A program made the position numbers and the translations under genes. A stretch of DNA of 22,742 nucleotides from a virus. The number at the start of each line of letters is the position of its first letter. Within the stretch, counting starts at the first letter, position 1. Below, piece by piece: positions 5,201 to 21,828 of the stretch. The DNA is taken from positions 1 to 22,742 of IMG/VR virus record IMGVR_UViG_3300006919_000496. One strand, 5' to 3'. The notes beneath the pieces are model-generated. The model was not told the DNA's origin. It did not search any database and saw nothing but the letters and a program-made list of their open reading frames with translations.

Positions 5201-8200
5201 ACTGTAAGGTCATACCAGGCCACAGTTCCATCATTGGACACACGTGTGCTTCCGTCTGCAGTGGTGTTGCCATCGTCGGCCGGAGCGCCAACGAACACTG
5301 CGTCATCTATCATGCACAGACCACGTGCAAAATCATCATTTGACGTGACACTGTCAAAGTTTAACCTGTCATCCACAACGAACCTAGTGTTGTACACAGT
5401 GGCCGTGTATGCCGCACCTGAATCTGTGTTTAGGTCCACTATAGTGGTGTCCTGTAAGTCAAATGTGGTTTCACCTGAATCAAATTTCATCTCCCTGGCG
5501 TTCGCAAACTTCTCAGCACCTATCACTATCCTCGTGCCGGACTGGTTTATGTCTAGTGTAGTTCCGAATTTCATGTTGTCTTGTGTGTCTGGTGCCGTTA
5601 TGGTCTGCTGTAATGTGTAGGTGTTTGTAGACCCGTCTGCGTTCCATTTGTAGTAGTATATCGCGCCGCCGTCTGTCTGTTCCGCTCCATCAACCCCAGG
5701 TGCACCTATGATCAACGTTGCACCGTCCTTGCTCATCGCAACGGATTCACCGAAAGCGGTGTTGATGCTTGATCCATCACTGTCTACGCCCGTGATTGTT
5801 TGAACCAGTGTGAATGAATTCTGTGTGCTTCCGTCATTGCTCTGTGATGTCCTAACGAATATCTCCACCTTACCAGCATTGCCTGGAGCCACTGAGCTGA
5901 CTGCGAGTATGTCGCCATTGTCGTTGGCGGCGATCCTGTGGCCGAACCTCTGTCCAGATCCCCCGTCGGGTGCTTCCAGTGTGTAATCTTGTGTCCAGGT
6001 GTCGTAAGTGGAACCGTCGAGTCCTACCCCCCATGTGTAAAGGTAAACACGTCCCGTGTCGTTGTCGTGTCCTGGCGCCGATACGAAAAGGTATTTCTGT
6101 GCCGTTTGCCTTGTGCTTAGTAATGTGGGCTCTGCAATCTTGTGGGCCCAACCAAAATTCTGTGATGCAAGGTCGACCGGTGAAGTCAGTGTGCTCAGTA
6201 TTCCGTATTTGAATGTGTCTGGATCCCAGACATAAATTTTGACCAACCCAGCATCTGAAAATCTTGTGCTTCCATCAGAGCCAAGTGCGTTTGTGTAAGG
6301 CGCTCCCGCCACAACGAAGTTCTCGTCTGTGCTGATGGACAATGACTCTCCCAACCTGCTGGTGTTGTCGTCGCCCTCCGTCATAGTGCCTATGGATTGT
6401 GAAGTGAACAGTGTGCCCGGGTCATGTGACTGTCTGAACAGGAAGTGTAGCTCTCCTTGGTTCTTGCCCGGGGCAGATATAACGAGCGTCCTGCCGTCGT
6501 TCCTCGCCACTATCCTGTGTCCAAACTCTTGGTCAGCGGTGGCCGTGTCAGGTGACAGAATGAGGCCATCTGTGTAGGGGTCCTGCTTCTCGTACACTCG
6601 CCACAGTCCTGTACTGTCCGCGTCCGCGAAAACCTTGTCTCCCTCTCGGCCTATTGCGTCGTCCTTGTCGGTGTAATCCGAGTAGCTCAGCCTATCATTG
6701 ACGTTGTCCATTGATGACAGCCTAACGGACACAAACTTGTAGATGTTGCCGTAACTGTCCGCAGTCGAACCGTCTTCCAGTGTGGGTATGAACGCCGTGT
6801 TGCCCGAGTAGTCTATTATGACCGTCTTGTGGTCTGGTGTGCTGGCGACCTGGTACACCGCGTTGAGTGTTGGTTCCTCGCTGTTGCTGATAGCGAAGAA
6901 GTCGGCCTCCGCCGTTGGTGAGGCTCCAGACAGACCGTGTGATCCGGTGAACGTTATCTCCAACTGTGATGCGTTGTTTATGGTGCGCAGTGTGGCTATC
7001 TTGAAGTCGGCCACCGTCAATCTGAACACGTCCCAGTCCCTGTTGGACTTGTTGGCCACCCAAATCAGATCATTGGCCGTAACTGCGTTGACGTCAAGGT
7101 TGAACAGGTCCGTGATATTGAATGCGGTGTGCTGTACCTGTCGCAGTTGTGGATATCCTGCGGTCTTGTAAACCTGTGCGGTGTCCCTATCCACGCCCGG
7201 TTTTGTGTAATCCAATCTACTGAACGTGGAGGCCGCTGTGTATTCCACTGGTCTATTGTACAGCTCATCTTTGGCTATGTACTCGGATCTAGCGTATTGG
7301 ACACTATCGTTGCTGGAGTCGTACAGCTCTATACTCTGTGGATCGGCGTTTATCTCGTCATCTCGTAATGTGATCTGAATGCTCTCCGTCGAGTCCGTGT
7401 TTCCGAACCTACCAGTCCTTATCATCCATTCCGGATACAGTTGCAGGTCAATATCAGAATTTTCGTACCTGGCCTTCAGTATCTTGTCAATGGCATTCTT
7501 AGTTCCCTTTTCCCGTATGTAGCCCTGATAGAACTTGTACTGTGACACGTCGTTCACGAATAGGTTCTCGAGGTAGTCCCTGCTCTGGTACCCTATCAAC
7601 CTCTGTGCCAACTGTTGCTGTGACTCATCGAAGTTGTTGGACTCTAGGTTATAGAAATCATTGAACTGGGCAATCTTGTAGTCGAAGTTGGGTATCAGTT
7701 GTGGTGCTGGTTTTTCTGCCTTGATCGTCCAGTTTGTTGCATCAAACACCGAACCCGAATTATGGTTCACCTTCGCCACGTAGAACTTGCCTTGGTGCTC
7801 AATCGAATCTCCCAACCTGTAGTCAGTGTGGGCCAACCAGTAAGTGACCTGTGCGGCGTCGAACACGAATCCCGGTGCGTAGTAGTCGCCGTTCCATCCC
7901 GCGGTCTTCCAACCCACCAACTTGAGTCTGGGTTGCCTGAAGCCAGTGAATGGATCATATATTATATCTGAGAACACAGTGGTGTTGTCAAACAACAGTA
8001 TGTGTTCTTTCTGCACTGTGTTTAGAGCTATGTTATACAGTCCCACATCCGCTGACTTGATCGCCAGCTCAAACGTCTTGCCTATGCGCTTGGTTGATAT
8101 CTCCCTGATGTCTATCTTCCTTCCGCCCGCATCCAACAGTGAGTAATCTCCCGCCAGGTTCCTCAATCTTCCAACTATGCTGTTGTCTGTGTCCAGTTCA

Positions 8201-11200
8201 AAACCATCCGCGGCCGGTGAAACTGTCACGGCAGATCCTGGTGTCCACTCCTGTGTTGTCCAGAACAGGAACTCCCTGACTGCATTGGCCCAGTTGAGCG
8301 TTTCTTTTAGTTCATTCGAGAACTTGTTGAACTTGAATCCTTGACCTTCTAACCAGTGACCATACCCGAATAGGAAGTCCGCAACGTCTTGTATAGTGTC
8401 AAAAACATATCCGTACGGTATGGTCTGCACTGTCTCTTGGTAGGCGTTGTATTGTGCCACCGTCTGTGATCCTGTAACGGACACTGCCTTGGATGTTGTG
8501 GTTTTAACTGGATAGTTGAACTTGAAATAAGGTTTGGTGGTCGAATACCCCAAGACCTTGTAACCACCCAGGAGCGTTGAACCATCCTGGCTGACGTCTG
8601 TGTTCTTCTCTATCAGCACTCCAGAGTACTGGAAGCTGTCCACTGGGTTAGAGGTCCTAAATAGTATCTTGTAGTTCTCATCAGGTATGAATTTGGATCC
8701 TGACGTCGATCCTGGAGATACCGAATCCGTCAACACCTTGATGTTGTCCTTATCGGTGAAGCCACCCAGTTTGTAGGCCAGTTGTACCGAAAGAGCCTTC
8801 ATCTTGTCATAGTAGAAAGTCTTTGGATCTTGGTTCTTGGATATCAAGTGATTGACCACGAAGGGTTGATAGCCAGCAGTCTGGTATCTGGTGGTTATAC
8901 CGGTGTTGTTGTCAGTTTCCGTCTCTAGGTGGTACTTGGCTGTGGACAGAGTCTTCCTAATACCCGTAAGTGTGTAAATCTGGTTGCCCGCTGTGTTTGT
9001 GGTCAGGCGTGATGGATCAAACAGATTGCTGAAGAATTTTGCGGGTTTGGTCAGAGCAACTGTCTTCATAACCGTGAATGGATACGCACTAGATCTCCTC
9101 CAGGCGGTCTCTGCTGGTGCTTGGTCTCCAAACTTCCAGGCCGCCTGTCTGCCCGGTATGTCAAAGTTATCGATCAGTCCTGCCGCTATGGGATCCAATA
9201 GGTTCCCCGACGCGTCCACGGGTAGATAACTCCTGATCTCTGGTTTACCGTATCTCCCTGGTTCCGTGGCTATCCTGTTCCATAAAACATCATTACCTGA
9301 CGTGTAGGGTGCAGTGCCGTATGTGGCTTCCCAATCTGAAGGTTTTTCTGAATGACCCAACATCTCCCATGGTCTCACATGTGGTGCGTCTGTGTCATAG
9401 AAATACTTGTATATTGCCCTCCAGTGTCCTGGTAGTCTCTCGCCGGTAAGCCTATCGGTGGAGTTTGCGTAGTTGTAAGTGAAGGGTGATCCCTCTGAGA
9501 AAGTTGTGTTGTTGATGTACTGAACGTTGTTCCTTCCTGCCCAAACATAGAAGTCCGGCGACATCACGCTTTCTATCTCGCCACGTGAGTAATCTGTGGC
9601 AGTGAAGGCACTTGGAAGCACATCGTGTAGGTCCACGTATGTGGCATCATATTCGGTTTTGAGATTGTTATAGATCCTCTTTTCCAGTTCCAATATGAGA
9701 TCATCTCGCTCGTCGCCGTATGCCTTTATTATTGAACCATCATGCTTCCTGATCACCGTGGTGTCGTTGAGGTATGTGTCGTCCGTGAACAACTCGGGCT
9801 TGAATTTTGGATACATTCCCATCTTGGTCGGGGTCACAGGCATGAAACTGCCCGTAGTGTCTCCGTAGTCTTTTATGACGATTTTGTCTCCTTCTGCGAG
9901 AGTGGTCAATATCGTGATACTGTCATCTGTGGTGCTGAACGTGTAGTCTGTGCCCACCAGCAACTGCTCGTCATTCAAGTACACGTAGACAGCACGGTTA
10001 CTCGGTGTGGTTATGTCATGCTGTGAGTCTATGGCGTATTCGGTCTGTGAAACACCCTGCACTGTGTATGATCTTGTTGAAACATTTTCTCCCCATCCTA
10101 CCATGTCCTCGTAGAAGAATGGGAAAGACGAGTTACGACCTTTTGTGATATTAGATATAATCTCATCAACCCTGTCTGCGGCCACACCTTCGTAGGCGGT
10201 GCCCATAGCGTGGGTAAGGAACGCGTTATACCATTTCTCGTACTCCTGGTTCACGTAATCCACGGAGGTGATGACATTGGTGTCTTGGTCTATGAGGCCA
10301 AACACAGCAGGAAGAAGTGGTCCCTCATGCTGGTGTATTGTACCTCCCTTCAACCTCGCATCGGGCTTATCCCTGAGGTTAGACACACCCGGTATTGCTC
10401 CTGTGATATCTTGGTTCTTGTCGAAAATGTCTCTGACGTGATCTAAAACCTGTCCCAGCGTGAAAGTTCCCAACTGTTGGTTGAGGCTGTTGGTGGCTAG
10501 GTTCTCCGGCACTTCGTATATGCCCTTTCCTGTCACTTTTGTGGCGGTGCTGTAGGTTGCCAACCTTAGTTGATCATTTACCGCGAGCTCATTGACGAAC
10601 CTCACGTACCTGTTGGTCGTGCCATCGACTAGTGTGTAGTCAGTGCCCTGCGTCATCCTGTTGCCGTTCACAGACACGGATACCTCTAGGTCAGTCAGCG
10701 CGGCGGAATTCTCGTAAACGTCTATGGGAAACAATCTCTTCTCCGTGTCGTCCACTATGCGGGTCCTTATCACCCTCTGTCGACTCTCGTTGGTCCTCTG
10801 TATCCATGCACTGCGTGAGTTGTGAGTCTGCCTGCCCGTGGTGTAGTGCAGGTGTCCCTCCGCCAGTTTCTTGGTCACGGTCCTTGAACCACTCTTGTAG
10901 GTGAACGTGCCTGAAGTGTGGTCTGACTCGAAAACTATGTCCCCCACGTTGTTGATGGTGTTGTACTTGACCCTTATGCCAAGCTCTGTGTCCACTGTTG
11001 CAGTGTCACTTGTGGCATATTTGAACACTGTGGCTCCCTGGAATGAGCTGTTAGGATACGTTGTCTCGTCATCAAAGGGGGTGTGGTCGTTGTCCCACAT
11101 TCCGAACAGAGGCTGTTGATTGACTCCGTTCTTCTGCTGTGCTTCGGTCCAGGCCTCCGCATTACCATCGTAAAAAAACGTCTTGCCCTGGTTTACTGTG

Positions 11201-12822
11201 CCAAACTCTATGAACACGCTTTCCTTGTCTGCTGGCGTGGCGTCGGTCGCCTGGGTGAGTGCTATCTTCTGTGTGGAGTCTCCCGCGGTCACGAAACTGA
11301 CGTCGTAGATCTTGTTGCGCACTATGGGGTCCGTGTCCACGGCGAATATCACCCGCATGCCGTCCGCCAGTGCTATTCCATCTATGATGTAGCCTCCAGC
11401 GTTGACCACCGTGCTGAAAGCATCTGTGGTGATGGTGTCATACAGCGTCACCGAACTCTTGGCCACTGTGCCGTGGTTGTAAAGTGCCAGTCCCGAATCA
11501 AATTCTATTATGGGCCTTTTCGCCCTAGCATCCTCGTCCAACACCGGGGTGAACCCACCTATCCTGGCGGTCTCGTCTATCACGCTCCTGTGGAACCATC
11601 TGTTGTATCTGGACCAGGCGTTTTGATCTTGGCTGTCACGCTTGATGGTTATGTAGTCCTTGACGTCTGGTGTGTAGTAGGCCAAGGCGTAAGGACGGGT
11701 GTCATAGGCCACTGAATCATACAGTATGGTGGTCTCTGTCGCGTAACTGGCGGGAGTGATCAGGTCCTGCACGTCAGTGAGTGTGATTGCGTCTCCCACT
11801 CCCTCCACGTAGTATTCCTTGCCCTGGTACGCTGTAGGCACCAGACTGCTTGTGAATTTTATCTTCATCCCATTCGAGAGATCTAAAGTCCTCAGACTGT
11901 AATTTTTTACTCCTATTATGTCATTTTCAACATCTATTGCTGTCGTGACGTCAGCGTCCTTGATCTGTAGTATTCCATACATGGCGTCATGGTTTCCACA
12001 CTGGTAGTACAGCGTGTCTGGCGCACCTGTGGTGGGCACAGTGAATGTGACCACGCCTTCGTCCGCGCCATTGTTAGTGACACCCGTTGAATAGATTGTT
12101 GAGGTTGATCCGTCCTCTGCCACCTTGCTCTTGTAGGGCTCCGTCATGATCCAGAATGGATGTCCCTTGGCGTTGACGTTGAATTTGTAGGTGTTGCCCC
12201 TGTACAGTGTCAGGATGGGATTGTTCTCGTTCTCTCTGTGTCTGAACTCATATGCAGATTGTCCCACGTTGGTCACTGTGTACTCCGCCACCGCGCTTGG
12301 CCCCACCGAGTCGATCTCGATAGATGATGGTCCTTCCGGTATCCAGTAGTACTCCCTGTAGTTGACCAACTTGTCATAATCGATGGCTGGATTCCAACTG
12401 TAAACCACTTCCTTGTTGAGACGATCGTGGTTGTCGATCTTCCCGCCCAGGTATTTGATCTGATTGATGTAATCATCATATGTGCCGGTGAATTTGACCT
12501 GGTCCTCTGGATTCACAGATGTGGTGTCCCTGTCGGTGTAGGTCACGGCAGGTTCCAACTGGTACGCGAAACGGTCCCTGTTGGTTGCGGGAATGTATCT
12601 GTCGTTGATTTCCCTGGTATAGGCGTCCTGCCTGCCTATGAAACCATCTAATCTCTCCAGTTCGCCCTTCTGAACTAGTGGGTCTAGTGTGCTGGCCAGA
12701 AATCGCTGGTTGGTGTCCGTCCTGTAGAATGCCGGAAGGTGCTGTACCGTCCTGCGATACTCGTTAGTGCCCTGTTGCACAACCTCGTTATTCGTTAATG
12801 CGTTTGTGGGATTGTCGGCCAT
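1..12822 (-). CDS. Giant modular baseplate protein, probable gp7-position wedge protein (C-terminus beyond window)
   Basis: The frame is open from the ATG at 12822-12820 to base 1: 4274 codons with no stop, so the real protein is longer. The start overlaps the gp6 stop as TAATG, with a weak AGG upstream. Seen in order: a conserved-looking N-terminus with LPAFYRTDTNQRFLASTLD (about residues 28-46); a cupredoxin-like domain (177-288); beta modules with an NG...DYT pattern (about 685-755 and 915-985); a carbohydrate-binding-like module (about 1657-1700); a gp7-like segment with EKGTKNAIDKIL (about 1770); seven FG-GAP repeats (2080-2535); W/Y-rich stretches; two GGSGY-type repeats (3215 and 3337); a second carbohydrate-binding-like module (3400-3434); and a DGST beta-repeat array (3512-4274). 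No signal peptide or membrane segment is visible. I counted only three cysteines. The position directly after gp6 is that of gp7 in T4-like phages, but T4 gp7 is only 1032 aa. Structural/baseplate role is fairly sure; the exact equivalence is inference. Confidence 0.88.
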   Translation of the reverse strand, partial: MADNPTNALTNNEVVQQGTNEYRRTVQHLPAFYRTDTNQRFLASTLDPLVQKGELERLDGFIGRQDAYTREINDRYIPATNRDRFAYQLEPAVTYTDRDTTSVNPEDQVKFTGTYDDYINQIKYLGGKIDNHDRLNKEVVYSWNPAIDYDKLVNYREYYWIPEGPSSIEIDSVGPSAVAEYTVTNVGQSAYEFRHRENENNPILTLYRGNTYKFNVNAKGHPFWIMTEPYKSKVAEDGSTSTIYSTGVTNNGADEGVVTFTVPTTGAPDTLYYQCGNHDAMYGILQIKDADVTTAIDVENDIIGVKNYSLRTLDLSNGMKIKFTSSLVPTAYQGKEYYVEGVGDAITLTDVQDLITPASYATETTILYDSVAYDTRPYALAYYTPDVKDYITIKRDSQDQNAWSRYNRWFHRSVIDETARIGGFTPVLDEDARAKRPIIEFDSGLALYNHGTVAKSSVTLYDTITTDAFSTVVNAGGYIIDGIALADGMRVIFAVDTDPIVRNKIYDVSFVTAGDSTQKIALTQATDATPADKESVFIEFGTVNQGKTFFYDGNAEAWTEAQQKNGVNQQPLFGMWDNDHTPFDDETTYPNSSFQGATVFKYATSDTATVDTELGIRVKYNTINNVGDIVFESDHTSGTFTYKSGSRTVTKKLAEGHLHYTTGRQTHNSRSAWIQRTNESRQRVIRTRIVDDTEKRLFPIDVYENSAALTDLEVSVSVNGNRMTQGTDYTLVDGTTNRYVRFVNELAVNDQLRLATYSTATKVTGKGIYEVPENLATNSLNQQLGTFTLGQVLDHVRDIFDKNQDITGAIPGVSNLRDKPDARLKGGTIHQHEGPLLPAVFGLIDQDTNVITSVDYVNQEYEKWYNAFLTHAMGTAYEGVAADRVDEIISNITKGRNSSFPFFYEDMVGWGENVSTRSYTVQGVSQTEYAIDSQHDITTPSNRAVYVYLNDEQLLVGTDYTFSTTDDSITILTTLAEGDKIVIKDYGDTTGSFMPVTPTKMGMYPKFKPELFTDDTYLNDTTVIRKHDGSIIKAYGDERDDLILELEKRIYNNLKTEYDATYVDLHDVLPSAFTATDYSRGEIESVMSPDFYVWAGRNNVQYINNTTFSEGSPFTYNYANSTDRLTGERLPGHWRAIYKYFYDTDAPHVRPWEMLGHSEKPSDWEATYGTAPYTSGNDVLWNRIATEPGRYGKPEIRSYLPVDASGNLLDPIAAGLIDNFDIPGRQAAWKFGDQAPAETAWRRSSAYPFTVMKTVALTKPAKFFSNLFDPSRLTTNTAGNQIYTLTGIRKTLSTAKYHLETETDNNTGITTRYQTAGYQPFVVNHLISKNQDPKTFYYDKMKALSVQLAYKLGGFTDKDNIKVLTDSVSPGSTSGSKFIPDENYKILFRTSNPVDSFQYSGVLIEKNTDVSQDGSTLLGGYKVLGYSTTKPYFKFNYPVKTTTSKAVSVTGSQTVAQYNAYQETVQTIPYGYVFDTIQDVADFLFGYGHWLEGQGFKFNKFSNELKETLNWANAVREFLFWTTQEWTPGSAVTVSPAADGFELDTDNSIVGRLRNLAGDYSLLDAGGRKIDIREISTKRIGKTFELAIKSADVGLYNIALNTVQKEHILLFDNTTVFSDIIYDPFTGFRQPRLKLVGWKTAGWNGDYYAPGFVFDAAQVTYWLAHTDYRLGDSIEHQGKFYVAKVNHNSGSVFDATNWTIKAEKPAPQLIPNFDYKIAQFNDFYNLESNNFDESQQQLAQRLIGYQSRDYLENLFVNDVSQYKFYQGYIREKGTKNAIDKILKARYENSDIDLQLYPEWMIRTGRFGNTDSTESIQITLRDDEINADPQSIELYDSSNDSVQYARSEYIAKDELYNRPVEYTAASTFSRLDYTKPGVDRDTAQVYKTAGYPQLRQVQHTAFNITDLFNLDVNAVTANDLIWVANKSNRDWDVFRLTVADFKIATLRTINNASQLEITFTGSHGLSGASPTAEADFFAISNSEEPTLNAVYQVASTPDHKTVIIDYSGNTAFIPTLEDGSTADSYGNIYKFVSVRLSSMDNVNDRLSYSDYTDKDDAIGREGDKVFADADSTGLWRVYEKQDPYTDGLILSPDTATADQEFGHRIVARNDGRTLVISAPGKNQGELHFLFRQSHDPGTLFTSQSIGTMTEGDDNTSRLGESLSISTDENFVVAGAPYTNALGSDGSTRFSDAGLVKIYVWDPDTFKYGILSTLTSPVDLASQNFGWAHKIAEPTLLSTRQTAQKYLFVSAPGHDNDTGRVYLYTWGVGLDGSTYDTWTQDYTLEAPDGGSGQRFGHRIAANDNGDILAVSSVAPGNAGKVEIFVRTSQSNDGSTQNSFTLVQTITGVDSDGSSINTAFGESVAMSKDGATLIIGAPGVDGAEQTDGGAIYYYKWNADGSTNTYTLQQTITAPDTQDNMKFGTTLDINQSGTRIVIGAEKFANAREMKFDSGETTFDLQDTTIVDLNTDSGAAYTATVYNTRFVVDDRLNFDSVTSNDDFARGLCMIDDAVFVGAPADDGNTTADGSTRVSNDGTVAWYDLTVRGEYAWKNLVTEEALVDVDKLGKVFDFNRKTKQIRDYYDLYDPIKGRILGLADREINIKTTWDPATYNFGPVSNSKTAWTDDHVGETWWDLSTVKWIWYEQDSQEYKTNNWGKTFPGSSIDVYEWTESTLLPSQWNTRSGTPQGASEGISGTAAYGDDSTYTVVQKYNSRLDRFVNFYYYWVRNKATVPVNGVVSRKNSTALVANMIANPERFDKKYYSVTDTNKLLINNVDDLSNDDIVLNVDIRTNDFDGDAHSVWKLAREGDKEYRPGTQIEQRWWDSLIGSNESGDLVPDITLPVNQRYGNNIRPRQSWYVDRFGALKEIIDYANLVLKRNQLVGQINLTNLDSKEPEPTVGSGEWDASVDTYAELTYVNTADLSGTVNYLVRSDETANGFWSIYQWDGTEFTRTRIQTYNTSSYWNYTDWYKTDGDMVHDENTVIDKQVTFQYELESLELPIGSHVKVTSADTGGWKLFMRTASGWELVGTENGTIRLSTKLYDYSQDATGFAGEDTFDDNRFDQEPRIETRKVLTALRDDLFINDLAVEYNTLFFTGLRRVLSEQTYVDWMFKTSFISAKNSVRPLDQRKSYTTGVDTWIEEYINEVKPFHSKIRDYKLGYTGTDTQDGLFTDFDNPAFYDDTTGKIRSLNVSSDTDKLTQLPWQMWYDYHKKYVQSITVTHGGSGYQTTPTVTILGGTVGSTGPFQIQATSSSGATSGWFGYYYPLFTSEKQAEIYDSQNGGSGATNSYTFDGYSGTFYGPTASVSEAQGTKSTAFKMYITPNTTAATATATIQNGAVTRITVTGIGANYTTTPTVVITGGRTDGSTPADTAKAYANLNNDLVRDFDTTIKFDRVSSTSRVQDWTASTAYAYNDLIRYNNELYKATSAFTSTTDFDDNIGDVYKVYGDETGLTAADRTKGFYTPGSGMPGNELDQVMTGVDYGGTMVTGLLFSQEQGWDRSGWYDFPWDNYGDSRVKAFRADGSTATYTFDTAPSTSDVYQVYITADDSTRRKLDDVIRGDGSTTAFTISETPDANALVEFIPFDDDGVLTPTDDRTLESIIQGGLFGSALGYAPSDIILEGDDFVNPDTSYAPEETVPGQLFDTLDIKVYTSPESGVPFITEKNYRGDGNTTEYAIGDFPGTLGSVTVTVDGVIKKLTTDYTVDVANKTITFTTAPAALSVISTKVFAISGENYRVLDTFTGDGSTAVFTTSTRGEFNLDSTSSDMYITIDGVPTTAYTTTTTANTITVTFTTAPASGEYIQIAGFNKSTTSTRSYASIRNDTITYDGSTNRHTLTYPPGAIGPFSGLTMVEVNGRMLRGPDNTYYLGDGSTYTYGVASGLGDGSTVDPAKTITSAAQVEVYVNGTKKDLNTDYTVDIGNQNVEFVSGAVPTATDVICISTLVDNHYYNEGTDIILKPSAITSPYSLTAGDVISVTTFNNALGMKQRREVLEGRPGGVFALRFAPLNATYTYVWLNGEQLTQQYDYTVSDTTLTITGKTITASDRIDVMYFALESAVGATGFRIFKDMLNRTFYKRISKTATTKLTIDMIEGTQTITVEDGSVLGTPDIASNTPGVIFIDKERIEYFTKSGNTLGQLRRGTLGTGIKEHGSGTEVVDASGTQTVPYADTVYTNTFTGDGSTVTFALSQTPSNAGELDIFIGGQRLLLTSEDGSTINYSVDGSTTAVTLSAAPASGTQIKILHKKGQVWYTGADGNPADGKGLQASTTQPAQFIAS
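345..495 (-). other. IDKERIEYF...RRGTLGT...HGSGTEV motif in the giant protein
   Basis: Residues about 4110-4158 read GVIFIDKERIEYFTKSGNTL, then LRRGTLGTGIKEHGSGTEV. The order 'Ile/Asp/Glu-Tyr, Ser-Gly-Asn-Thr-Leu, Arg-Gly-x-x-Gly-Thr, His-x-x-Gly-Thr-x-Val' is a small beta motif I know from many phage tail and fibre proteins. It sits between two DGST modules. Function is not established. Confidence 0.45.
2515..2630 (-). other. Carbohydrate-binding-like module 2 (CBM5/12-like) in the giant protein
   Basis: Residues about 3400-3434 read VQDWTASTAYAYNDLIRY followed by NNELYKATSAFTS. The pattern W.....Y...D.....N..Y.A is a good match to the core of family 5/12-type modules, clearer than the first copy at 7720-7855. 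I infer glycan binding; sequence shows only the aromatic pattern. Confidence 0.55.
2750..3185 (-). repeat. Paired GGSGY-type repeats flanking an inserted segment
   Basis: Two copies of one motif lie about 120 residues apart in the giant protein. Copy 1 is ITVTHGGSGYQTTPTVTILG (from residue about 3215), copy 2 is ITVTGIGANYTTTPTVVITG (from about 3337). Between them is a segment rich in Gly, Ser, Tyr and Thr. This motif is frequent in marine phage structural proteins. It forms short beta hairpins, and function is unknown. Confidence 0.6.
5215..6590 (-). other. Seven-repeat FG-GAP (integrin-alpha-like) beta-propeller in the giant protein
   Basis: Seven repeats start at residues about 2100 (FGHRIVARNDGR), 2157 (LGESLSISTDEN), 2223 (FGWAHKIAEP), 2293 (FGHRIAANDNGD), 2357 (FGESVAMSKDGA), 2419 (FGTTLDINQSGT) and 2498 (FARGLCMIDDA). 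Most continue into a V-x-x-A-P or I-G-A-P strand and an aromatic strand such as GELHFLFR, GRVYLYTW or GAIYYYKW. Spacing is 57 to 79 residues. Seven repeats of this type are what a closed seven-bladed propeller needs. Such propellers bind proteins or sugars, often with calcium; several loops here are Asp/Gly/Asn-rich but I do not see a canonical DxDxDG in every blade. Confidence 0.8.
7410..7625 (-). other. gp7-like segment of the giant protein
   Basis: Residues about 1734-1805 contain SRDYLENLFV, then YKFYQGYIREKGTKNAIDKI and DIDLQLYPEWMIRTG. T4 gp7 has a comparable local arrangement, in which an FYSTKG motif is followed by a helix and then by acidic beta strands. The resemblance is short and remembered, not aligned, but it fits the gene's place directly after gp6. 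Confidence 0.4.
7720..7855 (-). other. Carbohydrate-binding-like module 1 (CBM5/12-like) in the giant protein
   Basis: Residues about 1657-1700 read W-L-A-H-T-D-Y-R-L-G-D, then HQGKFYVAKVNHNSGS and end in DATNW. The spacing W...Y..GD....G..Y.A.......W matches the short aromatic module of chitinases (CBM family 5/12 and relatives), which binds polysaccharide through exposed aromatic residues. In a baseplate protein it would suit contact with cell-surface glycans. The call rests on pattern only and ligand is unknown. Confidence 0.5.
9870..10775 (-). other. Two isolated NG...DYT beta modules in the N-terminal half of the giant protein
   Basis: Two stretches share a pattern of beta-strand, NG or ND, Leu/Met, then G-T-D-Y-T. 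One reads VSVSVNGNRMTQGTDYTLVD (about 10690-10610), the other VYVYLNDEQLLVGTDYTF (about 9995-9940). Between them lie helical and aromatic segments without a recognised fold. The same pattern is repeated many times at the C-terminus, so these look like dispersed copies of one beta module, as seen in phage fibre and baseplate proteins. Confidence 0.45.
11960..12300 (-). other. Cupredoxin-like domain within the giant protein
   Basis: Residues about 177-288 look like a small blue-copper-protein fold. A strand-rich stretch (LTLYRGNTYKFNV) leads to GHPFWIM with His221. It ends in TLYYQCGNHDAMYGILQI, giving Cys275, His278 and Met281. The C-x2-H-x2-M spacing with an upstream histidine equals the type-1 copper ligand pattern of amicyanin. 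Cys275 is one of only three cysteines I see in 4274 residues, so its placement here is notable. Copper binding is inferred; a structural domain retaining the ligands by descent is also possible. Confidence 0.7.
12300..12822 (-). other. N-terminal module of the giant protein
   Basis: Residues 1 to about 174. The segment carries LPAFYRTDTNQRFLAS, ELERLDGFIGRQDAYTREI, FTGTYDDYINQIKYLGGKI and a W/Y-rich end with YREYYWIPEGP. From memory this kind of start is typical of very large structural proteins encoded after gp6 in marine T4-like phages. It is mostly polar and helical at first, and I infer it docks the protein onto the baseplate wedge. No enzymatic motif is seen. Confidence 0.55.
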
Positions 12823-15800
12823 TAGTAACCTGCCCCACTACTGCCGGTCGTTGAACCGGAACCTGTTGTAGTAGAGCCTGATACCGCTGATCCTGTGGTG
12901 GTGTTGGTAGTGGCAGTTGATGTGGATGTGACAACAGTGCCAGAGGCCGCCAATTGGTTGGCTCCCAGTGCACTAATGATTGTGACATCATCAACGGTGG
13001 CCCCACTGATGAAAATCTCGTCTGCCGCCGAGTCTATCTGGAACAAGGACCCAAAACCCTGTCCCGACTGGTTTGGAACTATGACTGCGGTCAGTAGGTC
13101 CGGTGCCAGCTGGTTGTGTATGTAGGCGGCAAGTTCCGTGAAGTAAAAAGTATCTCCGAAATCCCAGTTGTCCAATGCGAAGAATTCGTTTATGGCGGCT
13201 ATTACCCTGGTCTTGATAACAGAATCCGTGACATTGGTTTTAGGATTTTTGACTACCTTGAACGTGGCCTGCAGTTCCTCGTCGGCTTGTGTCCCGAACA
13301 ATATCTTGTATTTGACCGGATGGTATATTATCTGGTCAGAAAGTGATTTGAGTGGATTCAACACGCCTGAATAGTTTATCCTCAACTGGTCCTGTGTAGA
13401 AGTTGCTGGTTTCGTGCCACCATCCTGTAGCCATATCCTGAATAGGTTATCGTATGTCCTCTCCAGAAGATAAATGTCCACGATGTTGCTGACGCTTGGG
13501 TCTATACGAGTCTCCTGTCCTGCGAAATGCTTGTATTGGAAACTGATCGAGCTCCTGCCGCGCCTTGCTATGTAATCTGTTGTAGTGGAAAGAGTATTGG
13601 TTGTGGCGCTGTATACTTTTATCACATCCTCGTCTGAGGCGTAGAAGTAGAACAACTGTCCGTCCGTGTAGGTGGCAGTGTTTAGGTCGATGTCCGTTTC
13701 GTTCTCAGTGACCACGAAGTTTGTGGCGGCGTATGGTCTGAATCTCTCAATGTTGTCGTAGGAAGTGTACTTCTCAAAGAACACGAACTTGGTGCTCTCG
13801 GACAGCGTGGGTTCCACCACTATGTCAAATATGTCAGGGTTGTCGACCACTCCGTCATCGTCGTCATCATAGAATCCCACTTTGACCTTCCTGTTGTCCT
13901 GGAAGCCGTCCGCTTCTGTGACGGTGTCCACCACCTGCCAGGTTATGGGATAGCCTATGCTGTTGCCCGTTGACACGATGCTGTTTGTCTTCAAGATCTT
14001 CACTGTGTCCTTAACGCTACGTCCTGTCTGGTAGTCGTATATCCTCTCCTGCGCATCAAAGTGGAACTTGTTCTGAGATTCTGATTCAAAGATGTAATCC
14101 AGTCGCCTGTAGGTCACCGTGTAGGTGTTACCATCGTTCGTGAATTTGAACCACCAGCTGGCGTCAAGATTTGTGCCAGATGCGCTACCGGTGTTTGTCA
14201 GACTGAACACAGCACTGGTGCTTAGGTTGGTTGATGTTATCACCTTCCAGGTCTCTGTGTCCACGTCATATCTCAGACCAAACTCCTCGTAGGCCTCGAT
14301 CCTGTCGATGATGTCCGCTTCTAACGTTGCCGAGAATGAAGTTGTGAAATTGGGTATGACCGCATTGAGCACTGCGCCGTTTGGTATTATGTCGTTTAGA
14401 GTGATCGGCCCCTGTCCTGATTCTAAATTTCCCAGTCCGCCGTTGGCACCGTCCAGTACCACCGCGCCTATCTTGGCCCATGCCCTGTCTTCTGCGTTGT
14501 CAGTGCCTGCCGTGACCAGTGTTCCATTTAGGAATTTCCTGCTGTCTGGTGACGTGAATTTTATCAGCGCACCTGGCTTGGCGAATTTCAAATTTGATGT
14601 GGCGTAGTCACCCACGACCAAAGCACCACCCGAAGTAAAGTATCCGGTGTTGGTGTTGGTTGAAGTTGTGGTGGAATTCCACGTGGCGGTCAAAGTGCTC
14701 AGGTCCTTGGTACCGTACTTGAGATAGTAGAACTGCCTGGCGTATGCTTCTTTCAACTTGGCCTCAACGGAAGTGTCTATCGTGGTTTGGATCTCGCTCC
14801 TGTTGTTGAACGTGAATGTGAACTGCTGGGTGCTCTCCTCCCTGTACAGTATGCCGTCCTCTGCGAACACCGAAACGTTTGAGTACGCACCAGTGGGGTC
14901 TAAAATTTCTTTGGCCCTCGAAATACCCGACGCTGACCTGTTGACCGATCTCACTTTCACTATCTCCTGTGATGCACTCAAAGGTACCACTTGGTAGTCC
15001 TCCGCTGTGATCATCCTGTTCTGTGAGTAGTACACCTGTGCGGCCTTTTCCCTGATACTGTCGTTGGATTCAGTGGCCGCCGCGTTGTACACGCTGGCCT
15101 TGAGGCTCATCGCTATGGTCAGGGTCTGTTGTGCGCCGTTGGCGTCCGTGTATGGAACCGCGACCTGAATGTTCTGCATGTCAGACGGCTGTATGGCGTA
15201 CTTGGCATTGTCACTGATCCTGTGGTAGGTCCTGAAAGAACCCAGTGGTAGGTTAGAGAAATTTCCGTCACCGAACACTAGGTCCACGGCGTCGTTGTTC
15301 TTTGTGACCACGTTGTAGATGTTTCTCTCCGATTCCGCCAGTGAGTTGTAGATGGCGTTGTTGCCTGAGAGTGCGGGCACCTTGGCCCACTTTTCCGCTA
15401 TCTGGCCGAACTGGTCTAACTTATAAAGCCACACGTCTGAGTCGTTGATGTTGGATGCGGCTATGGATCTCACGTAGTTGGTCACCGCCGTGTCCACCGT
15501 GAAGTCCGCGTACTGCATCGTGCCCTGTTTGAACAGGAAGAAGAATCCAGTGTTGTTGCTACTGTCGCCCGCACCGTCTGACCTGTAGGTGTAGGTGAGC
15601 CCCGTGCCCGGTATGGGATCTGACTCGTAGATGGAATCTGAATTGTTTATGGTCGAAGGCACTATCTCGAATGTCCTGCTGATGCCACCCACTGACTTGA
15701 CATACTTGAACAGGGGTAGGTCCGTCTGATTGGAACTGAGCGTGTACACCTCCGTGTCTATGCCGCCTATGGATCCCGACTCCCTGGGATTGCCGAACAG

Positions 15801-16304
15801 TTGTCCGGTCTGGTTCGCGGCGTTCAGTACGGCCGTGAACTGTTCTCTGTAGTTGGAGTTGGCGGAATCATTCCACACTATTGTCTGTGTGGCCAGGTTT
15901 GTTCCTGTGCTGTCTAATACGTCCTGTGTGGTTGATATTGAATCAATTTTAAGGAGTCCGGTTGCTGGTTTGTTTCTTTTGGCGTTGTAGTTGATCAACC
16001 TCGCCAACCTAAGGACTGAATTTCTCCTCTCCGCGGTCTCTAGGAAGTTCTCCCTGGCGTTTAGGTCCACCCTGAAACTTAATGCCTGTGCTATGTAGGC
16101 TATTAGGTCTATGAGGGCAACGTACTCCGAGCTCTCAACGAAGTCGTTGAAATCATCTGGATAGTTCTCCCTTAAATAGGCCACCATGGTCCTTCTCAGC
16201 GTCTCGAAGTCGTAGGATTTGAAATCTGCCTGTTGGAATGCCTGGTAGATCTTCCTCCAATCTTCCGCGACTAGTAATCTATTTTGTCTGTCTGTAGTGG
16301 CCAT
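12822..16304 (-). CDS. 6: Baseplate wedge protein gp6, enlarged
   Basis: 1160 aa. In T4, gp6 forms the continuous ring that joins the wedges of the baseplate and controls sheath contraction. The helical N-terminus (residues 1-110, with SSEYVALIDLIAYIAQALSF and ARENFLETAERRNSVLRLAR) is typical of marine T4-like gp6. The C-terminal part (about 1030-1090, with NWDFGDTFYFTELAAYIHNQ) matches the baseplate-J-like end of the family. T4 gp6 is 660 aa, so this version carries several hundred extra residues, mainly beta-rich Ser/Thr/Asn stretches in the middle. A Ser/Thr/Gly tail ends the protein at about 1115-1160. The start follows a 42-base gap with no Shine-Dalgarno sequence that I can see, and the stop overlaps the next ATG (TAATG). 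No cysteines are visible. Confidence 0.9.
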   Translation of the reverse strand: MATTDRQNRLLVAEDWRKIYQAFQQADFKSYDFETLRRTMVAYLRENYPDDFNDFVESSEYVALIDLIAYIAQALSFRVDLNARENFLETAERRNSVLRLARLINYNAKRNKPATGLLKIDSISTTQDVLDSTGTNLATQTIVWNDSANSNYREQFTAVLNAANQTGQLFGNPRESGSIGGIDTEVYTLSSNQTDLPLFKYVKSVGGISRTFEIVPSTINNSDSIYESDPIPGTGLTYTYRSDGAGDSSNNTGFFFLFKQGTMQYADFTVDTAVTNYVRSIAASNINDSDVWLYKLDQFGQIAEKWAKVPALSGNNAIYNSLAESERNIYNVVTKNNDAVDLVFGDGNFSNLPLGSFRTYHRISDNAKYAIQPSDMQNIQVAVPYTDANGAQQTLTIAMSLKASVYNAAATESNDSIREKAAQVYYSQNRMITAEDYQVVPLSASQEIVKVRSVNRSASGISRAKEILDPTGAYSNVSVFAEDGILYREESTQQFTFTFNNRSEIQTTIDTSVEAKLKEAYARQFYYLKYGTKDLSTLTATWNSTTTSTNTNTGYFTSGGALVVGDYATSNLKFAKPGALIKFTSPDSRKFLNGTLVTAGTDNAEDRAWAKIGAVVLDGANGGLGNLESGQGPITLNDIIPNGAVLNAVIPNFTTSFSATLEADIIDRIEAYEEFGLRYDVDTETWKVITSTNLSTSAVFSLTNTGSASGTNLDASWWFKFTNDGNTYTVTYRRLDYIFESESQNKFHFDAQERIYDYQTGRSVKDTVKILKTNSIVSTGNSIGYPITWQVVDTVTEADGFQDNRKVKVGFYDDDDDGVVDNPDIFDIVVEPTLSESTKFVFFEKYTSYDNIERFRPYAATNFVVTENETDIDLNTATYTDGQLFYFYASDEDVIKVYSATTNTLSTTTDYIARRGRSSISFQYKHFAGQETRIDPSVSNIVDIYLLERTYDNLFRIWLQDGGTKPATSTQDQLRINYSGVLNPLKSLSDQIIYHPVKYKILFGTQADEELQATFKVVKNPKTNVTDSVIKTRVIAAINEFFALDNWDFGDTFYFTELAAYIHNQLAPDLLTAVIVPNQSGQGFGSLFQIDSAADEIFISGATVDDVTIISALGANQLAASGTVVTSTSTATTNTTTGSAVSGSTTTGSGSTTGSSGAGY

Positions 16305-16346: not shown

Positions 16347-16762
16347 TTAAGATAGACGAAGCAGTGAGTTCTCGTCGAAACTGAACCTCAGTTTCTCCGT
16401 GATGTTGAGTGGCACGTAGGTTATAGTGGCCTGTATGGCTATGCCCTTGTCCGCCTCTGTGACCGTGATGTCCTGCGTTGAGATCCTGGGATCCGCGTTG
16501 AGATTCTGCGTGATGTCCTCCACAATGGCATCCTTGAGTGCCTCCGTGAACGGCTCGAAAAGGGCATCGTATATTATGGTTCCGAACTCGGGATTCTCCA
16601 CCGCTCGCCCTTGCGCACTGACAGCCTGTTGATCAGATCCTGTTTGGCCACCTCGAAGTCGTACAGTTTGAAGTTCTGACGGTCTGCGCGACTGCTGAAA
16701 CCCTTGAAGGTCACTGTCTTGTTGCTCAATCCGTTGTCTGATCCGTTGTCCCCGTATGCCAT
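16347..16762 (-). CDS. 25: Baseplate wedge protein gp25, disrupted by a one-base frameshift
   Basis: gp25 is a small sheath-initiator and wedge-core protein of contractile tails. The start at 16762 (MAYGDNG...) is set by AGGAGG at 16771-16776 eight bases upstream and by the TAATG overlap with the gp5 stop. This frame gives FKGFSSRADRQNFKLYDFEV and NRLSVRKGER for 54 codons, then reads WRIPSSEP and stops at 16574. The expected continuation VENPEFGTIIYDALFEP lies in the -1 frame from 16601 to the TAA at 16347. Adding one G near 16601-16603 restores GER-VENPEFGT and an unbroken protein of 138 aa, close to the 132 aa of T4 gp25. The R-K-G-x-R...P-E-F-G core is the family signature. The in-frame ATG at 16805 lies inside gp5 and gives an unrelated N-terminus, so I reject it. 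An assembly or sequencing error is the likeliest cause. Confidence 0.85.
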
Positions 16763-16968
16763 TAGTGTATCCTCCTGAACTCCACGTCGACCTTGCTGTA
16801 GTCAACCATGTAGTACCCCGTGTCGGTCATTGTGCTGGCCCATGGCACCTCCTGTGCCATAACACCCTGCCACGTGCCCGACGTGTGCTTGTATTTAAAC
16901 TCGTAGATGTTGATTCCCGATGGGGACTTACCAATCAATCTGATGTCTTCCTTCAATCTCACGTCACT
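16762..16968 (-). other. Peptidase S74-like intramolecular chaperone segment at the gp5 C-terminus
   Basis: The last 68 residues begin SDVRLKEDIRLIGKSPSGIN and continue with IYEFKY and WQGVMAQEV, then YYMVDYSKVDVEF. The SDxRLKxxI start and the GVMAQEV motif define the endosialidase-type chaperone (peptidase S74) family, which trimerises beta-helical fibres and in many proteins cuts itself off before the conserved Ser-Asp. This copy is short compared with the usual length of about 100 residues or more, so cleavage is uncertain. Confidence 0.8.
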
Positions 16969-19344
16969 GAATCCACTGAAGAAATTTCCTATGGCCTTGC
17001 CCACGGATGAGCCTGCTATTGATTTGAACACTGTGGACTGTCCTATCTTGATGCCCAGGTTGGTGAATGCGCCCACGGTTCCGCCACCCCTTACGATGTC
17101 CTGCGCACTGGCGCCACCCAGTCCCGCAAGGAAACCAGATGCGCGTCCTTTGAGTGCGGATATGGCAGTGGACTGTATAGATGATGTGACCTGTCCCGCC
17201 ACCACGTTCTTGAACACGTTGGTAGTGGCCTTGAGGTCACCCGCCGATGCGATGTTGGCGATGTTGATGTTGCCCGTGATTCCAGATATGTCTATGCCAC
17301 CGATGTTTTTGACGGTGCCCTGTCCTCTGGCCAAATCTCTGGCGGACAGATTACCTGTTGATAGTTTGTTCAGTGCGCTCTTGGCCGTGTTGGCCAGTGA
17401 TTGACTGCCCACGTCTGTGGCAAATCCCTTGAAGTCACCTGAGAACAACTTGGTTTTGTTACCTAAGGCGAACAGTTCTCCAGCCTGGTTCACGAACACG
17501 TTGTCCTTGAACAGTTCAGCCACGTCAGATCCTGTGACAGTGTCTATGACCTGGTCCGCCAGTTTCTTGGTCTGGTTGTTGAGCACATCCGACACGGAGT
17601 CAGACACTTCGAATCCCTTGAACTGGTTGCTGATGCTGGCCGCGGTGTCCCACTTGCCCCTGGCCCCGTTTAATATGTCATAGTCCTTGTCATAATTCTT
17701 GACAACTTCCGCCAGTATCTGTCTGGCCTTGACCGGGTCAGTGGATGTGCCCATCCCTTCCTTAAGTTCTCTCTCCATGTCTGCCTGTGCCTGTGCCTTT
17801 CTTGTGGGAGGATGCGGCGAAAGCCTGTTTCTCTGTTCCATGTACTCCACTGTGCCTGGGGTATTGGCCAGCCTATACCAGGCCTTCCTGTTGTCCGCAC
17901 CGCCTGTGGGCAGTGCGCCCTCCGAAGAAAATCCCCGGAACCGCGGCATTGGCTCGTGTGTAACGAACCTGTAAACTGTCGTGGAAGTCTGTGCGGTGAA
18001 AGGCCTCAGTGGCTCTATGCCCTTCTTGACCAACTCCACGTCGCCCTCCTGTCTCTCAGTCATACCCGCGGCGTCCGTGTCCAACCACTTAGGTCCCCAG
18101 GTGTCGCTGGCTCCTGTTGAGTTAAAGTGCACCTGTGCGCCCGCCAGGTGTATCTGTCCCGCCGCGCCGTGCAACTGCTGTCCGTCCGTGTATGAGGTCA
18201 ATCCGTCCCTGGCGTAGTCCCTTATGCTTCCTTTCTGTGAGCTGTTGAACATGCCCTTCTCTGCCAGGTTCAACATGTAGGTGCCCGCCGACTTGACAAT
18301 CTCGTTGGTGGCGCTCATCCTGATCTGGCCCGAGGCGTGCATGTTGATGTTGGCGTCCGAGTGCAGGTTGAAGTCACCCTGCGTCCTCATGTTGATTCCG
18401 CCAATGCCGGAGTACACGTCTATCCTGCCCTCGCGGTCCATCTCTATCCAGGCGTTTCCCGATCCGTTGGCTATGTACACCACACCTTCCGTGTCGTGCA
18501 TCAGCAGTTGGTGTCCTGAAGCGGTCCTCAATCTGGTAAGTTGATTTGTGCCGTCCGCGGCACCGTCGTCCATCACGAACGTGTGACCTGACAGCCTGTC
18601 CACTATAGCCGTTGCCTCGGCGTCGTCTGTGCTGACCTTCTGTGGGGTTGAACCAGGATTCAACCTACCAGGGGTGCTCATGCCGAAAACTTGGCTGGGC
18701 GCTTCCCTTTGCGCTGAGGACGTGGTGTTTCCCCTGACATCATCCGCACTCAGACCTTGTCTGAGCAAGGTGTCCGCCAATGGGTGTATCGGCTTGTTTT
18801 TGTTTTTATAATTGATCTCGTCTACTCCGGAAAACCTGTTGACCTCACCCGCGGGGAGGTTGCTAGAACCATAATCCTCTGTGGGGTCTTGGTTAAGATC
18901 GTCTTTGACTTTGTTTGAAGACGCTATGCCCGGTGTCATGTGGTTTGTCAGTGGTTCCTGAACACAACCTATCCAGAATGCCTGTTCCATCTTGCCCTCT
19001 GCCAGTATCACTAGTACCCTGGTCTCTAGGTCAGGTGGCACCGCCCAGAAGCCGTAAGAGAACTGTGAGTCCGTGTGCTTGGTCCCTGGCTTGACGTGCC
19101 TCAATCCCTTGTTGCCATAGAACGGTGACAGGTAGTCGCAGTCGATGAGACCATCGAACTCGGACTTGTACGTGCCCCTCAGTGACGGGATCAGCACCTT
19201 GAGCCTACCGGCGCGCAGTGGATCCTTGTTGCCCTTCACTATGCCCACGTAGGGTCCGGGGAATATGTTACCCCAGTCCTGATTGATCTTGGGTGACCTG
19301 GGTGTTGAAGCATCTCCTTTGAGGTAATCGTGCAGTCCCGCCAT
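16762..19344 (-). CDS. 5: Baseplate hub/central spike protein gp5 without visible lysozyme domain
   Basis: 860 aa. In T4, gp5 forms the trimeric membrane-piercing spike under the tail tube. Residues about 27-133 (FPGPYVGIVKGNKDPLRAGR, VLIPSLRG, FWAVPPDLETRVLVILAEG, WIGCVQEP) form the OB-fold typical of gp5/VgrG spikes. A linker of about 120 residues follows. Residues about 275-360 (GNAWIEMDREGRIDVYSG, INMRTQGDFNLHSDANINMH) are the repetitive strands of the spike beta-helix. An Ala/Gly-rich half contains two related stretches (RDLARGQGTV and QDIVRGGGTV). The end is a peptidase S74-like segment. T4 gp5 has a lysozyme domain between OB fold and helix; here the space is too short and I see no Glu-Asp-Thr catalytic pattern. 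The start overlaps the upstream stop (TAATG) and has AGGAAGGA as ribosome site. Confidence 0.88.
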   Translation of the reverse strand: MAGLHDYLKGDASTPRSPKINQDWGNIFPGPYVGIVKGNKDPLRAGRLKVLIPSLRGTYKSEFDGLIDCDYLSPFYGNKGLRHVKPGTKHTDSQFSYGFWAVPPDLETRVLVILAEGKMEQAFWIGCVQEPLTNHMTPGIASSNKVKDDLNQDPTEDYGSSNLPAGEVNRFSGVDEINYKNKNKPIHPLADTLLRQGLSADDVRGNTTSSAQREAPSQVFGMSTPGRLNPGSTPQKVSTDDAEATAIVDRLSGHTFVMDDGAADGTNQLTRLRTASGHQLLMHDTEGVVYIANGSGNAWIEMDREGRIDVYSGIGGINMRTQGDFNLHSDANINMHASGQIRMSATNEIVKSAGTYMLNLAEKGMFNSSQKGSIRDYARDGLTSYTDGQQLHGAAGQIHLAGAQVHFNSTGASDTWGPKWLDTDAAGMTERQEGDVELVKKGIEPLRPFTAQTSTTVYRFVTHEPMPRFRGFSSEGALPTGGADNRKAWYRLANTPGTVEYMEQRNRLSPHPPTRKAQAQADMERELKEGMGTSTDPVKARQILAEVVKNYDKDYDILNGARGKWDTAASISNQFKGFEVSDSVSDVLNNQTKKLADQVIDTVTGSDVAELFKDNVFVNQAGELFALGNKTKLFSGDFKGFATDVGSQSLANTAKSALNKLSTGNLSARDLARGQGTVKNIGGIDISGITGNINIANIASAGDLKATTNVFKNVVAGQVTSSIQSTAISALKGRASGFLAGLGGASAQDIVRGGGTVGAFTNLGIKIGQSTVFKSIAGSSVGKAIGNFFSGFSDVRLKEDIRLIGKSPSGINIYEFKYKHTSGTWQGVMAQEVPWASTMTDTGYYMVDYSKVDVEFRRIH
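16771..16776 (-). promoter_or_regulatory. Strong ribosome binding site of gp25
   Basis: AGGAGG on the minus strand lies inside the end of gp5, eight bases before the ATG at 16762. It is the best Shine-Dalgarno match in the window and fixes the gp25 start. Confidence 0.75.
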
Positions 19345-21528: not shown

Positions 21529-21828
21529 TTACAATCCTAGGTCTCTAAGCACGTTCTCCTTCTTGGGCAACTGGACAGTAACCCCTGGACGGAAATCGTA
21601 TATAGGATCCTCTATCTGATCTGGGTTACGCTGTGCGAACACCCACCACAGCCTTGGCGTGCCGTAGAGGTCATAGGCCAACAGATCAGGCCTGTAGGCG
21701 TATGTTCGTTCTATTGTGTATGATTGGTCGTCGTCCTCAGCCGTGATGGTCCTGGGATTGAGCACGTCCAGGTACTCAGACTGCTCCTGTGTTTCAAAGT
21801 AAGGTGAGGTGTTGGAATATTTTGCCAT
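21529..21828 (-). CDS. 53: Baseplate wedge protein gp53
   Basis: 99 aa, about half the length of T4 gp53 (196 aa). gp53 links neighbouring wedges around the hub in the T4 baseplate. The conserved core is in the C-terminal half: AYRPDLLAYDLYGTPRLWWV, then FAQRNPDQIEDPIYDFRPG and VTVQLPKKENV. This 'platform: small beta unit with Y-G-x-x-R-L-W-W and P-x-x-D-F-R-P-G' pattern is the gp53 family signature and resembles LysM-like folds in other tail proteins. The start overlaps the upstream stop as TAATG, with a purine-rich GAGGTAGGG before it. Confidence 0.8.
   Translation of the reverse strand: MAKYSNTSPYFETQEQSEYLDVLNPRTITAEDDDQSYTIERTYAYRPDLLAYDLYGTPRLWWVFAQRNPDQIEDPIYDFRPGVTVQLPKKENVLRDLGL

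Follow-up and report, generated by a model that had tools for sequence, protein, structure and literature searches.

A candidate copper-binding cupredoxin module in a variable slot of a giant phage baseplate protein

The window analyzed here is a virus fragment of 22,742 bases, which makes up the whole of IMG/VR record IMGVR_UViG_3300006919_000496. Its minus strand carries a giant open reading frame (ORF), and a domain near the N-terminus of the encoded protein was predicted to adopt the fold of blue copper proteins (cupredoxins) with a complete set of copper ligands. The domain, its predicted ligands and its flanks were located as follows (tree rows are those of the flank tree described below; residues are numbered in the giant protein):

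1–12822, minus strand: giant gp7-position baseplate/virion protein; ORF with 4274 amino acids (aa) in the window, continuing beyond the window start; phrog_10938 virion structural protein, E 6e-102, residues 23–695, and further stretches
12325–12765, minus strand: N-terminal flank of the slot, residues 20–166; tblastn matches in 52 of 50,697 phage records and alignment; common to jumbo phages without the domain
11956–12285, minus strand: predicted cupredoxin domain, residues 180–289 (modelled as 168–295); phrog_677 E 1e-22, structure model, fold matches, Pfam PF25489 at 27.3 bits against a cut-off of 27
12160–12162, minus strand: His221, predicted first ligand (GHPF); kept in 81 of 82 tree rows of the window's group
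11998–12000, minus strand: Cys275, predicted thiolate ligand; kept in 82 of 82 tree rows of the window's group
11989–11991, minus strand: His278, predicted second His ligand; kept in 82 of 82 tree rows of the window's group
11980–11982, minus strand: Met281, predicted axial ligand; kept in 82 of 82 tree rows of the window's group
11776–11922, minus strand: conserved stretch after the slot, residues 301–349, DIIGVKNYS...VEGVG; alignment with jumbo relatives and a loose profile match in 201 of 207 unique rows

The 4274 residues contained only three cysteines (positions 275, 2503, and 3937) and a single CxxHxxM motif, C275-G-N-H278-D-A-M281; His221 lay within a GHPFWI motif. From composition, 0.0003 CxxHxxM motifs were expected in the protein, and 3 of 2000 shuffled proteins contained one. 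A chance origin of the motif was ruled out by the phrog_677 match (E 1e-22) and by tblastn matches in phage records. The profile of the domain's own family matched the window domain at E 3e-37, a value inflated by the inclusion of that domain in the profile, and matched no other segment of at least 50 aa in the window at E up to 1.

An AlphaFold2 (AF2) model of the window domain, made with 48 relatives from viral contigs (alignment A1), had eight strands, a predicted local distance difference test score (pLDDT) of 87.2 and a predicted template modelling score (pTM) of 0.82. The best 50 of 187 Foldseek matches in the PDB at E 0.001 were all copper proteins of cupredoxin fold. Rusticyanin 1rcy was the top match (E 1.2e-5); TM-scores were modest (about 0.5) and root-mean-square deviations (rmsd) large. 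VIA-align 2 aligned 98 residues of the model with nitrite reductase 2dv6 (Z 10.0, rmsd 3.9) and 98 with rusticyanin 2cal (Z 9.8, rmsd 2.3). Matches in BFVD also included short beta-sandwich proteins of Pithovirus and Marseillevirus records, and the fold therefore also occurs in giant viruses of eukaryotes.

Searches with the A1 family profile against PDB sequences led to blue copper proteins, among them plastocyanin 1b3i (E 3.7e-5), rusticyanin (4.9e-5), and amicyanin (0.0027). In the printed profile alignments all four ligands were paired with those of plastocyanin 1b3i and rusticyanin. Among 49 family members, matches at E up to 0.01 were found in Pfam to Copper-bind (20 of 49), Cupredoxin_1 (9 of 49), and PF25489 (20 of 49), and in NCBIfam to plastocyanin (19), amicyanin (13), and rusticyanin (11). 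The link of the window domain to copper proteins rests on this family, because the domain alone matched no copper protein among PDB sequences with phmmer (one chance match was returned) and no NCBIfam family at E 0.01, including the amicyanin model TIGR02657. Its PF25489 score was 27.3 bits, just above the cut-off of 27, when the 133-aa domain was scanned and 24.5 bits, below it, when a 1000-aa piece was scanned.

A sequence-only reading of the window had placed a possible copper-binding cupredoxin at 11960–12300, a span that fits the profile match (residues 180–289, 11956–12285). The ligand set it named, His221 with Cys275-x2-His278-x2-Met281, was recovered in the ORF, as was its description of Cys275 as one of three cysteines. 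It had called for a structure prediction in which a Greek-key beta sandwich was expected; a cupredoxin fold was predicted, with the pLDDT of 87.2, Foldseek, and VIA-align in agreement. Together with the ligand alignment to plastocyanin and rusticyanin, the predicted fold supports the cupredoxin reading.

Near its N-terminus the giant protein has a variable slot, which the domain occupies as a module. In the window it was placed between NYREYYWIPEGP and IIGVKNYS. Among the 40 listed matches to the N-terminal flank most were jumbo phages, e.g., Phosso, Atu_ph07, relatives of PA5oct, SCTP-2, and RaK2, and in all five jumbo-phage relatives that were fetched the flanks aligned and the cupredoxin was absent. 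Another insert, of roughly 70 aa, filled this place in Phosso and Atu_ph07 (L166, L167); the slot thus seems to exchange domains.

The domain itself was found in other phage proteins. With tblastn at E 1e-3 it matched 324 of 50,697 phage records; Synechococcus, Prochlorococcus or Cyanophage appeared in the names of 318 of these. It formed the C-terminal end of gp9-type connectors (S-ShM2, P-SSM4) and lay between collagen-like repeats in P-SSM2_028. Pelagibacter phage Baldr carried it in a putative tail-fibre protein, and the podophages P-GSP1 and P-SCSP2 in proteins without annotation. In cyanophage S-H9-1 (L175) it ended a protein annotated as a subtilisin-like serine protease, and a peptidase S8/S53 protein of ACG-2014e was likewise among the BFVD matches to the model. 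All 23 sampled phage domains, from 22 named records, had HP and CxxHxxM with all four ligands; the sample was picked by hand from match lists, 19 domains from window-domain queries, which could favour ligand-bearing copies, and four from a ligand-less query.

Bacterial copies also existed; several lay in ORFs of 130–170 aa or formed the end of longer ORFs whose starts were signal-like, and these relatives are probably secreted. Their ligand state is no evidence, because the pattern through which they were found held C, H and M; in one of them (L406) Asn stood in place of the first His. Close copies in Pelagibacter and Betaproteobacteria assemblies (L389–L391) were considered as a pointer to the host and set aside, as they look like binned phage contigs and give no host evidence.

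An early count, in which 389 of 405 aligned rows and 87 of 87 representatives had all four ligands, would have made the ligands simply universal. That count was biased: some search patterns held ligand residues, and rows gapped at a ligand column had been dropped before representatives were chosen. Its 16 other rows were 11 partial or cut matches and five diverged extra copies. Four of the latter (L298/L355, L340/L266) came from two viral contigs, each seen twice, in which a diverged second copy without ligands lay beside a four-ligand copy; L179 was the fifth. Searches with the flanks only revealed a group of slot domains without ligands.

The slot set comprised 381 sequences (the window and 380 of 381 loci; L573 was cut), which reduced to 207 unique flank-plus-slot rows. 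A cupredoxin match was present in 187 of these; one of the 20 without (L565) was cut short. From the 187, seven rows incomplete or unalignable at the site were left out of the ligand count, as were three gapped at the first column, in which the other three ligands were replaced. The remaining 177 fully read domains had four ligands in 126 rows, three in one, two in none, only His221 in three, and none in 47. Since this count includes 80 loci from a domain search and three from the bacterial-relative pattern search, it was repeated on flank-only finds (180 unique rows, 154 fully read): four ligands in 103 rows, three in one, two in none, one in three, and none in 47. The proportions in these counts are not frequencies, because queries were chosen from both the ligand-less and the ligand-bearing groups and each search kept the nearest 80. 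Among the best 80 flank-found loci, 78 kept GHP and CxxHxxM, and the other two were cut by contig ends. The single row with three ligands (L502, IMGVR_UViG_3300031519_000089) had Met in place of the first His and kept Cys-His-Met, possibly an altered copper site. Across 59 distinct sequences, the ligand codons showed silent CAT/CAC and TGT/TGC changes.

A tree of 144 rows was built from the flanks without the domain, after removal of near-copies and of nine incomplete or unplaceable rows. The search was quick and made without bootstrap, a long-branch warning applied among rows without the domain, and support for the split below was moderate. The 126 cupredoxin rows grouped together with a Shimodaira–Hasegawa-like approximate likelihood ratio test (SH-aLRT) value of 95. 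They split into 82 rows with the site (81 with four ligands, and L502; support 91), which include the window, vs. 44 rows without it (support 89; three keep His221). Gain or loss of the ligands on this tree was one change between the two groups.

Within the copper group the His, Cys, His, and Met columns changed 1, 0, 0, and 0 times over a branch length of 10.4; in the other group they changed 10, 6, 5, and 9 times over a branch length of 14.2. Across 95 columns the median number of changes was five in the copper group and ten in the ligand-less group. The fold core (N201, P202, G209, T211, Y212, F214, P222, P268, L271, Y273, and G283) hardly changed in either. The sequence-only reading had named free variation of the ligands among homologues as a point that would count against it; such variation was absent from the window's lineage, where 81 of 82 tree rows kept all four, and present in the sister lineage, where 47 of the 154 fully read flank-found domains matched the family but had none of the ligands.

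Domains of the sister lineage most often had Asn-Ser-Asp-Leu at the ligand positions and still matched the family profile strongly (e.g., L464, 69 bits). This set recurred, fairly steadily, in 24 of the 187 unique cupredoxin rows (e.g., L461, L464, L479), as if a hydrogen-bond network had replaced the copper. An AF2 model of ligand-less L479, made with 26 others of its group, was again a cupredoxin (pLDDT 82.5, pTM 0.74). Its Foldseek matches were mainly laccases and other multicopper oxidases, nitrite reductases, and rusticyanin, and against 2dv6 it aligned over 107 residues (Z 11.1, rmsd 3.4). Papers giving habitats for six of the sample numbers were looked for, and none turned up.

In a domain-only tree each giant-protein group was supported as a clade (99/98 and 99/96). 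A single clade of the two, as expected from one insertion rather than two, was not rejected by the approximately unbiased test (p-AU 0.19). Loss of the ligands in the sister lineage is favoured over gain, because the sampled phage relatives outside carry the ligands; two insertions would remain compatible with the trees.

Neighbouring genes place the giant ORF in a baseplate cluster:

12822–16304, minus strand: gp6-like baseplate wedge protein; phrog_10646 E 1.6e-296
16347–16805, minus strand: gp25-like baseplate wedge protein, start codon uncertain; phrog_261 E 1.6e-10; Pfam GPW_gp25 E 1.6e-5, 25.1 bits, below the cut-off of 27.2
16762–19344, minus strand: gp5-like baseplate hub protein with an S74-like C-terminus; phrog_13211 E 1.6e-37; Peptidase_S74 (intramolecular chaperone) E 0.002, below cut-off
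21529–21828, minus strand: gp53-like baseplate wedge protein; phrog_7145 E 1e-30; Pfam Phage_gp53 at 22.2 bits against 21

The gp6-like gene adjoins the giant gene and the gp25-, gp5-, and gp53-like genes are near, which is the position of gp7 in the gene order of T4-type phages. These gp6-, gp25-, gp53-, and hub-like neighbors bear out the baseplate assignment made from the sequence alone. A profile of the N-terminal 740 residues and five relatives matched no PDB sequence at E 1, so that no likeness to a solved gp7 was found by this search. Elsewhere in the giant protein, FG-GAP repeats (E 8e-20; window positions 4822–7320, minus strand) formed an adhesin-like region, and matches to CBM_5_12 were weak and below cut-off.

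From the family alignments and the model, the window domain is most probably a copper-binding cupredoxin. The near-complete retention of the site in the window's group, and its absence as a unit from a sister group that has the fold, make copper binding very likely in this lineage and dispensable for the fold. Most simply read, the window's lineage and cyanophage tails have a copper-binding cupredoxin whose site was lost in one sister lineage. As the fold persists without ligands, the domain should have a copper-independent task, probably that of an exposed spacer or of a binding module; as the ligands are held in the other lineage, copper should add something. The domain would be made metal-free in the cytoplasm, and each copy would acquire a single copper ion at cell lysis or in seawater. 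It would form an exposed, exchangeable module of the host-contact apparatus, a setting in favour of which the FG-GAP repeats and the weak CBM_5_12 matches were counted. Bound copper would stiffen the ligand loops at one end of the sandwich and so give a stable recognition surface; in the sister lineage the domain would be a spacer or binding module without metal. Taken as a whole, this explanation has a slightly better than even chance of being right, and the particular function, a copper-stiffened host-contact surface, falls just short of an even one.

Several observations weigh against this interpretation. The ligands are not unique in their constancy, as 20 of the 95 columns never changed in the copper group. 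In the ligand-less group the replacing residues were themselves fairly steady (10, 6, 5, and 9 changes against a median of 10). The split also gives one natural experiment only, because there was one change on the tree. What marks the ligand columns is the contrast: they are held in one group and exchanged in the other, while the fold core is constant in both. Finally, the weak axial Met was kept almost throughout, which speaks for tuned copper chemistry more than for stiffening alone.

One alternative is a redox trigger, in which the copper changes state at the host surface or in the periplasm and helps to set off baseplate rearrangement or sheath contraction. All 82 tree rows of the group kept the ligands, the weak axial Met included, apart from one row without His221, and the solved relatives are mostly electron carriers and copper enzymes. 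Yet Pfam recognized no redox partner domain in the part of the giant protein that the window covers, the sister group keeps the domain but not the ligands, and podophages, which lack a contractile sheath, carry the domain as well; we regard a trigger as quite unlikely. A stiffened surface was favoured over redox signalling because no partner was in sight. Alternatively, the domain could be a beta-sandwich spacer that binds no metal, its ligands being relics. The 47 of 154 flank-found slot domains without any ligand, one of which models as a cupredoxin (pLDDT 82.5), make such a spacer conceivable, but relic sites should be replaced now and then, and in the window's group the four columns changed 1, 0, 0, and 0 times over a branch length of 10.4 with ligand codons that do change silently. 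Relics are thus decidedly improbable.

Two further explanations accept a metal and assign it another role. Virion cupredoxins might merely soak up copper and protect particles or lysate, or the site might be filled by another metal. Absence of the site from the whole sister group shows it to be dispensable there; the few copies per virion that baseplate symmetry implies would buffer little, however, and the ligands were retained almost without exception in the window's group, and this reading is highly doubtful. The loaded domain might instead be taken for a copper carrier by a host copper-uptake receptor, in the manner of the Trojan horse put forward for phage-tail iron. The copper of a type-1 site is buried, which counts against such recognition, and no host and no receptor are known for the window's phage. 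On the other side, the domain recurs in tail proteins of mostly marine cyanophages, and tail-fibre iron with a receptor hypothesis has been described for marine phages (PMC11705849). We consider this route unlikely, and a copper-stiffened recognition surface is retained as the preferred explanation.

The complete site kept in its own lineage and missing from the sister lineage suggests that some phage tails carry copper. A wider proposal is that functional type-1 copper centres, picked up after lysis and tuning the contact with the host, are present in the tails and baseplates of many aquatic phages; since a phage lineage has either the whole site or none of it, copper would then be an interchangeable part of the tail. 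This is put forward as a tentative possibility, somewhat less likely than not. Blue copper proteins are known as cellular electron carriers. If the reading is correct, a retained blue-copper site in tail proteins of abundant marine phages adds copper to the metals borne by virions, and phage infectivity could be tied to marine copper chemistry. A ready-made comparison comes from the two sister groups of phages: both have this domain in the slot, and just one of them has the site. No account of a copper-protein domain in phage tails was found among the titles and abstract openings listed from one open-access library.

Overall, the domain shared features with several known systems. With plastocyanin, rusticyanin, and amicyanin it shared family-profile sequence matches and the predicted fold, and with the first two the paired ligands. 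The ligand loop of amicyanin has C-x2-H-x2-M spacing, as has C275-GN-H278-DA-M281 of the window domain, and the matched nitrite reductase 6hbe has the same spacing. In single-domain blue copper proteins the residue after the first His is Asn, and in the window domain Pro follows His221; unlike those proteins, the window copy is an internal domain of a virion protein with no known electron partner. PF25489 (At5g54830-like) was the only Pfam family above cut-off for the window domain; it is named from a plant protein. The bacterial cupredoxin proteins carried the same domain but were free or membrane-anchored by appearance rather than virion parts. The C-terminus of cyanophage gp9-type connectors was the same domain (phrog_677, E 1e-22 over its last 110 positions) in another carrier protein, with no cupredoxin annotation among the matches listed. 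Virion proteomics of S-SM1 reported 41 proteins, and the text of the proteomics section does not name gp9 (PMC3037559). The Trojan or Ferrojan horse of iron in phage tail fibres (PMC11705849) likewise involves a transition metal bound in a phage tail, but the passages on it concern HxH iron motifs, and copper cupredoxins are not their subject. The plastocyanin gene petE (PMC3037559) is also a case of a blue copper protein encoded by cyanophages; there it is a host-like electron-transport gene for the infected cell, whereas the cupredoxin described here would be a domain of the virion.

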